DNA of 20,135 nucleotides from a virus, in the IMG/VR virus record IMGVR_UViG_3300007640_000345, positions 1 to 20,135 of that record; one strand, 5' to 3'. A model generated the notes under the pieces. That model did no database searches and was not told the DNA's origin. It saw only the letters and a program-made list of their open reading frames with translations. A program made the position numbers and the translations under genes. Shown piece by piece: positions 1-641 of the stretch; within the stretch, counting starts at the first letter, position 1; each line of letters begins with the position of its first letter.

Positions 1-99
1 CAGACGCTTGACCTCGGCCTTGTCGTTGTCGCGCATTGCATTGAATACCTGCTTGCGCAGGGTCTTCTCTGTCTCTGTTGCGTCGTCGTAAGCGCCCAT
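1..99 (-). CDS. N-terminal end of an unidentified leftward gene (partial)
   Basis: This is the 5' part of a leftward gene that runs off the window start; only the first 33 codons are present. The ATG at 99-97 is supported by a strong Shine-Dalgarno AGGAGGG on the minus strand (positions 113-107) with a 7-base gap, and the frame stays open to base 1. The visible peptide begins MGAYDDATETEKTLRK and is highly charged and probably helical. I do not recognise the family. It is divergent from the large rightward operon and shares a control region with it, as regulators often do in phages, but the visible residues do not show a DNA-binding fold. The reading of this as a real gene rests on the RBS, the predicted promoter at 142-170 and the open frame. 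Confidence 0.6.
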   Translation of the reverse strand, partial: MGAYDDATETEKTLRKQVFNAMRDNDKAEVKRL

Positions 100-117
100 C
101 TGGTTTCCCTCCTGTTG

Positions 118-133
118 CGGGACAAATGTCCCG
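118..133. promoter_or_regulatory. Perfect 16-base palindrome, candidate operator
   Basis: The sequence CGGGACAAATGTCCCG has 7-base arms that are exact reverse complements, separated by AA. It abuts the predicted rightward -35 box (134-139) and lies just downstream of the predicted leftward -10 box, at or just after the expected leftward start near 135. A dimeric repressor bound here would block leftward transcription directly. In leftward mRNA the same bases could form a hairpin 4 bases before the Shine-Dalgarno. No U-run follows on either strand, so it is not a terminator. Confidence 0.6.
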
Positions 134-163
134 TTGACGAACATATAGCGATGCGGTGATACT
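134..163 (+). promoter_or_regulatory. Predicted sigma70 promoter for the rightward operon
   Basis: TTGACG (134-139, 5 of 6 match to TTGACA) is followed after 18 bases by GATACT (158-163, 4 of 6 match to TATAAT). Transcription would start near 170, just upstream of the AAGGAGGG ribosome site and the GTG at 190. A 17-base spacing to TGATAC (157-162) is a poorer alternative. The promoter overlaps the predicted leftward promoter, so the two probably cannot be occupied together. Confidence 0.45.
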
Positions 164-170
164 GCGTCAA
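142..170 (-). promoter_or_regulatory. Predicted sigma70 promoter for the leftward gene
   Basis: On the minus strand TTGACG (170-165) is followed by exactly 17 bases and then TATATG (147-142), the optimal spacing and a 5/6 plus 4/6 match to consensus. The expected start near 135 places the palindrome at 118-133 at the very beginning of the leftward transcript, ahead of the RBS at 113-107 and the ATG at 99. Confidence 0.5.
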
Positions 171-189
171 CCCATGAAAGGAGGGTATC

Positions 190-390
190 GTGAAAAATGT
201 CACTACACGTCATGTCCCCGGCAAGCGCCGGGTGACGTTCTACCTGTCGGAGGAGATCGCCAAGCGGCTCGAGGAGCGGGTCGAGGCGGTCAACAAACTG
301 TCGGCGCCCAACAAGGCGAGCATGAGCGTGGTCGCCGACCAGCTCCTCGATCACGCCATCGCCACGACCGGCCCAGGGGCGCAGGCATGA
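190..390 (+). CDS. Ribbon-helix-helix (CopG/MetJ-Arc-like) DNA-binding protein
   Basis: This is a 66-residue protein starting at GTG 190, chosen because AAGGAGGG lies just upstream at normal spacing. Residues 13-19 (RRVTFYL) fit the short beta strand of an RHH dimer, followed by a first helix (about 20-34, SEEIAKRLEERVEA) and a second (about 43-56, SMSVVADQLLDHAI). RHH proteins bind operators as dimers and often repress their own promoters. It is the first gene of the rightward operon, immediately downstream of the palindrome and overlapping promoters at 118-171, so autoregulation of this switch is a reasonable inference. Its stop overlaps the next start by ATGA. The RHH assignment is by pattern and length, not by close identity to a named protein. 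Confidence 0.65.
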   Translation: MKNVTTRHVPGKRRVTFYLSEEIAKRLEERVEAVNKLSAPNKASMSVVADQLLDHAIATTGPGAQA

Positions 391-641
391 CCGAGGGAAG
401 CAACACCATTGCAGGCGACAAGATCAAGAGCGTGATCGATCGCGTCGAGAACCTGATGCAGGAGCGAAAGAACATCACCGAGGACATCCGCGAGGTGTTC
501 ATCGAGGCCAAATCGGTCGGCCTGGATCCATCCATCATCAGAGAGCTGATCAAGCTGCGGGCGATTGAGCGTGATGCACGGCAGGAGAAGGCCGCGCTGC
601 TCGAGAGCTACTCTGTGGCAGCGCAGCTCGACCTCTTCTGA
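387..641 (+). CDS. GapR-family (DUF2312) nucleoid-associated protein
   Basis: This 84-residue protein closely follows the DUF2312/GapR pattern: residues 10-24 (GDKIKSVIDRVENL), 33-45 (DIREVFIEAKSVG, where the family has I-x-E/D-V-Y/F-x-E-A-K-x-x-G), then a basic R/K-rich helix and R65-Q66-E67 before a terminal L-x-x-Y motif (71-75). GapR of Caulobacter is about 89 residues, binds overtwisted AT-rich DNA as a multimer and aids topoisomerases ahead of forks and polymerases. A phage copy may act on phage DNA topology or compete with host GapR; that is inference. The start at 387 overlaps the preceding stop (ATGA). An in-frame extension to 156 is open but crosses the RHH gene and lacks family similarity. 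Confidence 0.85.
   Translation: MTEGSNTIAGDKIKSVIDRVENLMQERKNITEDIREVFIEAKSVGLDPSIIRELIKLRAIERDARQEKAALLESYSVAAQLDLF

Follow-up and report, generated by a model that had tools for sequence, protein, structure and literature searches.

The stretch of DNA analysed here, hereafter the window, comprises 20,135 nucleotides of the viral record IMGVR_UViG_3300007640_000345 (positions 1 to 20,135). Its positions 100-189 form the intergenic stretch where the leftward and rightward gene blocks part, an arrangement also seen in a 43-kb sister contig, G001. The region and its flanking genes contain the following features, with coordinates referring to the window:

1-99, minus strand: 5' part of the leftward gene (59 aa in L001, MGAYDDATETEKTLRKQVFNAMRD...), whose product matches no recognised family
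107-113, minus strand: Shine-Dalgarno sequence AGGAGGG of the leftward gene, 7 nt before its ATG at 99-97
118-133: inverted repeat CGGGACA-AA-TGTCCCG, a candidate operator or a 5' hairpin of the leftward mRNA
133-139 and 165-171: inverted repeat GTTGACG / CGTCAAC, with perfect 7-bp arms and a 25-bp gap, holding the -35 boxes
134-163, plus strand: possible weak rightward promoter TTGACG-N18-GATACT (TTGACG at 134-139, GATACT at 158-163), with a predicted start at about 170
143-171, minus strand: leftward sigma70-type promoter GTTGAC-N17-CTATAT (-35 at 171-166, -10 at 148-143), with a predicted start at about 135
179-185, plus strand: Shine-Dalgarno sequence AGGAGGG of the rightward gene, 4 nt before its GTG at 190
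190-390, plus strand: probable ribbon-helix-helix (RHH) protein of 66 aa (Pfam RHH_1, E=0.0074, below cut-off)
387-641, plus strand: GapR-like nucleoid-associated protein (Pfam PF10073, E=1.9e-21; NCBIfam GapR, 9.3e-17, below cut-off)

The leftward block is devoted to recombination and replication. In G001, it is made up of the 59-aa gene, of small genes and of a YqaJ/RecE-like exonuclease; towards the other end of the contig, the same strand also carries a DnaB helicase and nucleases. Further along the block lies a small HTH_3-like protein (37878-38126, minus strand) with a sub-threshold match. The 59-aa product was modelled as three helices, for which a structural search gave no significant match, and family searches matched it to no DNA-binding family. 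The rightward block combines the RHH and GapR genes with packaging and virion functions, and includes a methyltransferase, a DUF1064 protein, a primosomal/DUF1376 protein, the terminase subunits, and the virion genes. Its first product is probably an RHH protein, as suggested by the weak Pfam match, a strand-helix-helix model (strand 14-19, helices 21-35 and 39-60, pLDDT 80), and the weak RHH_7 match (2.6e-4, likewise below cut-off) of a relative (41%) in L003; no solved RHH structure in the PDB matched the model. An 81-aa protein encoded at 1620-1865 looks RHH-like by eye and matched no Pfam family. The GapR-like gene is the second of the rightward operon, and GapR relatives were detected in 126 phage records, in contrast to a 2025 paper in which GapR was presented as first seen in a phage (PMC12185513).

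Most GapR matches in phages come from phages of alphaproteobacteria, Rhodobacter, Rhizobium, Caulobacter, and Ruegeria among them; this suggests that the host is probably an alphaproteobacterium. TerL relatives include BcepC6B, MEP301, and SI2 at 38-44%, and the virus is probably a podovirus-like phage of alphaproteobacteria. All close relatives found are identical to the window across 100-400. Searches for further relatives using the RHH protein, GapR, an SSB-sized leftward protein, a 191-aa protein, and an RHH alignment returned only two near-identical contigs, plus the distant RHH homologue in L003, where the gene upstream runs in the same direction. Between the window and G001, the register is shifted by an insertion or deletion from 10446 onward. 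The right end of G001, which may be chimeric, carries a second small-terminase-like ORF (L100:11906-12415) about 37 kb from the first, with weak Terminase_2 and PHROG matches.

The hexamers, spacers, and ribosome sites named in a preliminary description of this DNA are all present. The two promoters had been described there as face-to-face; they are in fact divergent and overlapping, pointing apart. In the E. coli register, the leftward promoter reads TTGACG (170-165) and TATATG (147-142) on the minus strand, with a 17-nt spacer. Since the gene after that for the RHH protein encodes GapR, most of whose phage relatives are alphaproteobacterial, the alphaproteobacterial consensus is the better yardstick. 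The leftward promoter matches the S. meliloti / alphaproteobacterial sigma70 consensus CTTGAC-N17-CTATAT (PMC2573895) at 11 of 12 positions with the exact 17-nt spacer. When the window was scanned with this consensus, the leftward site had a single mismatch, against three in each of the seven other matches; in G001, it is the sole site with two mismatches or fewer, and 0.03 one-mismatch sites would be expected. When these 90 bp were shuffled, 0.0002 (0.02%) of the shuffled sequences attained its score. The -10 element misses -7T, a base absent from more than 60% of alphaproteobacterial sigma70 promoters (PMC8407463). By sequence statistics, the leftward promoter is real and of the alphaproteobacterial sigma70 type.

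The rightward site is perhaps a weak promoter, with a consensus match that does not exceed chance. It reaches 9/12 against the E. coli consensus with an 18-nt spacer, a score attained in 6.7% (0.067) of shuffles, and 8/12 against the alphaproteobacterial consensus, attained in 33% (0.33); a generic promoter scan of the 20 kb gave two matches including this site, versus 2.6 expected. Of the two overlapping promoters claimed at the outset, the leftward one is upheld and the rightward one is not distinguished from shuffled sequence. The -35 boxes do form the arms of one inverted repeat, as had been claimed (GTTGACG at 133-139 and CGTCAAC at 165-171, a perfect 7 bp), but this is not separate evidence, because two opposed -35 boxes give a TTGAC inverted repeat by definition; after shuffling of the 90 bp, 12% (0.12) of the sequences contain some 7-mer inverted repeat. 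Simple arithmetic on the predicted starts (about 135 and 170) bears out the further claim that each -35 box covers the start of the other promoter. A 20-base match to 141-160 found in the distant phage G005 lies inside coding sequence there and was dismissed as chance.

These frequencies bear on a rather unlikely reading, according to which 100-189 holds a lone strong leftward promoter, the rightward site and the TTGACG repeat being due to chance, the rightward operon being transcribed from a different promoter or with an activator specific to the phage, and 118-133 forming a 5' hairpin that makes the leftward mRNA more stable. The rightward and 7-mer shuffle figures count in its favour; moreover, the hairpin would begin 2 nt past the predicted leftward start, and the ribosome site would not be part of its 6-bp stem (-9.5 kcal/mol). 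On the other hand, both E. coli-type promoters reach 9/12 jointly in only 0.6% (0.006) of shuffles, and the first rightward gene starts at 190, its GTG preceded at 4 nt by a strong ribosome site, so that the leader of the operon should start in or upstream of 100-189.

The element at 118-133, previously taken for a perfect 16-base palindrome, is symmetric at only 14 of its 16 bases: its 7-bp arms flank a central AA that breaks the symmetry, and its reverse complement is CGGGACATTTGTCCCG. It spans +2 to +17 of the predicted leftward transcript, its centre (125.5) falling at about +10 of the leftward promoter and -44.5 of the rightward one. The element is single-copy in G001, where the next best match has three mismatches. 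Inverted repeats with 7-bp arms and a gap of up to 4 are no more frequent in the window than expected (11 versus 11.0), and one within this 90-bp stretch has a probability of about 0.02, such a repeat turning up in 2% of shuffles. Contigs sharing CGGGACANNTGTCCCGTTG were also considered and set aside, their contexts being unrelated.

Autorepression is common among RHH proteins whose gene comes first in its operon. The RHH gene likewise comes first in the rightward operon, and its accumulated product might simply shut off one or both promoters, resulting in homeostasis or a short early burst and in no switch at all, which we regard as unlikely. A reference title in PMC2629481 points to autogenous regulation by Arc in the P22 literature. 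Three plus-strand ATGTCMC words, at 126, 197, and 212, fall into a span of 93 bp, against about 0.06 expected per 150 bp over both strands. Noted post hoc, they are possible extra half-sites for such a repressor, but those at 197 and 212 lie within the RHH coding sequence, and RHH binding to this region is putative.

The preliminary description had proposed a compact, bistable genetic switch choosing between the leftward gene and the rightward operon. What holds of this proposal is that the control region is divergent and that its promoter sequences overlap, a conclusion drawn mainly from the leftward promoter; bistability is not supported. A double-negative switch calls for a repressor from each side. 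On the right stands the probable RHH protein, whereas the first gene on the left has no recognised family and a weak HTH_3 protein is found only farther along; a toggle would lack its second arm, because the leftward product shows no DNA-binding family. The overlap of start sites and -35 boxes, which is what speaks for such a switch, had been thought to make occupancy mutually exclusive. In bidirectional promoters, overlap itself gives no competition at basal activity unless one direction is activated (PMC12825309); it is insufficient alone, and a regulator is therefore needed. A search restricted to the integrase family PF00589 found no match in the window or its relatives, records that may be incomplete, and this too argues against bistability, which appears extremely improbable. 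A lysogeny switch is likewise disfavoured, because no PF00589 integrase was found: of the integrase and CI-type repressor that mark temperate-phage immunity, these possibly incomplete records offer no PF00589 match and, as sole HTH_3 candidate, the sub-threshold one. It is very unlikely, though slightly less so than bistability, that the region is a very compact two-state element in which the RHH protein, together with GapR acting on the supercoiling of the same short region, would select between promoters whose -35 boxes cover each other's starts, in a lineage for which no regulator of such kind has been described.

We tentatively favour, as a reading that falls somewhat short of probable, a divergent control region at 100-189 that mediates a one-way early-to-late change during infection, with the RHH protein as its most likely regulator. 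By sequence statistics, the near-consensus, host-type sigma70 promoter fires leftward into the recombination/replication block, whereas the RHH-GapR-packaging-virion block would be transcribed rightward from the weak overlapping promoter. A phage regulator may bind 118-133 as a dimer, covering +2 to +17 across the leftward transcript start and lying at -44.5 with respect to the rightward promoter; because of this place at both starts, it would lower leftward transcription and favour rightward transcription. The loss of polymerase from the strong leftward promoter might itself free the weak rightward one, so that the outcome would be a temporal change in one direction and not a bistable choice. 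The most likely regulator would be the RHH protein, encoded in the rightward operon; a second candidate is the HTH_3-like protein encoded in the leftward block. Counting in favour of this control-region model, the 118-133 element is single-copy and is placed between the two gene starts. Counting against it, the rightward promoter is no better than chance, the RHH model has no solved-structure match, and the repeat at 118-133 could be due to chance (2%) or could form an RNA hairpin. What can be read directly from the DNA is the strong signature of the leftward promoter and the way in which the two sites overlap; the rest of the mechanism is what we infer.

As a phage control region, the divergent stretch is of an ordinary kind, and its sequence does not establish a bistable switch. 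Although the system is ordinary as a kind, the packaging-side operon opens with genes for a regulator candidate and a nucleoid-associated protein, and the region offers a well-delimited target of 54 bp for experiments on how, in alphaproteobacteria, a small phage passes from expressing its replication genes to expressing its packaging genes.

Examination of the divergent regions of L089, SI2, Ss1, and BcepC6B disclosed no comparable overlapping promoter pair. The bidirectional promoters described by Warman, Grainger and colleagues also fire divergently from overlapping promoter elements, one polymerase excluding the other, but they have reciprocal -10 elements and starts 7-25 bp apart (PMC10268837), and the 35 bp separating the predicted starts here led us to reject this class. 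The Pc/Pr conjugation switch of pLS20 resembles the present region in its overlapping divergent promoters of unequal strength and in regulator sites that overlap them (PMC4207663). It differs in being plasmid-borne and in relying on RcoLS20 and DNA looping between two operators, whereas a search for a second operator copy here found none.

Among podoviruses, Mnt and Arc of P22 are RHH proteins, and Arc is encoded by the first gene of the operon that it autoregulates. The immI region of P22, where ant is under the control of these two small repressors (PMC2629481), is likewise a regulatory region of a podovirus; it is embedded in the late operon and governs an antirepressor, whereas the region described here divides two genome arms. 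In phi29, the A2c and A3 promoters are divergent. With the assistance of p6, the phi29 protein p4 acts as a repressor of A2b/A2c and as an activator of A3 (PMC4974454), and with P22 immI (PMC2629481) this provides a comparable layout, so that the earlier impression of an arrangement unfamiliar among podoviruses holds poorly. Here, unlike in phi29, core promoter elements overlap each other, the phage is not known to encode a p4 or p6 homologue, and the binding of a regulator is a proposal. Both are nevertheless podoviruses or podovirus-like, with early and late promoters (here presumptive) in one control region, and the nucleoid-type p6 of phi29 has a parallel in the GapR encoded by the second rightward gene. 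A temporal change from early to late transcription, as achieved in phi29 via p4 and p6, would be the simplest fit.
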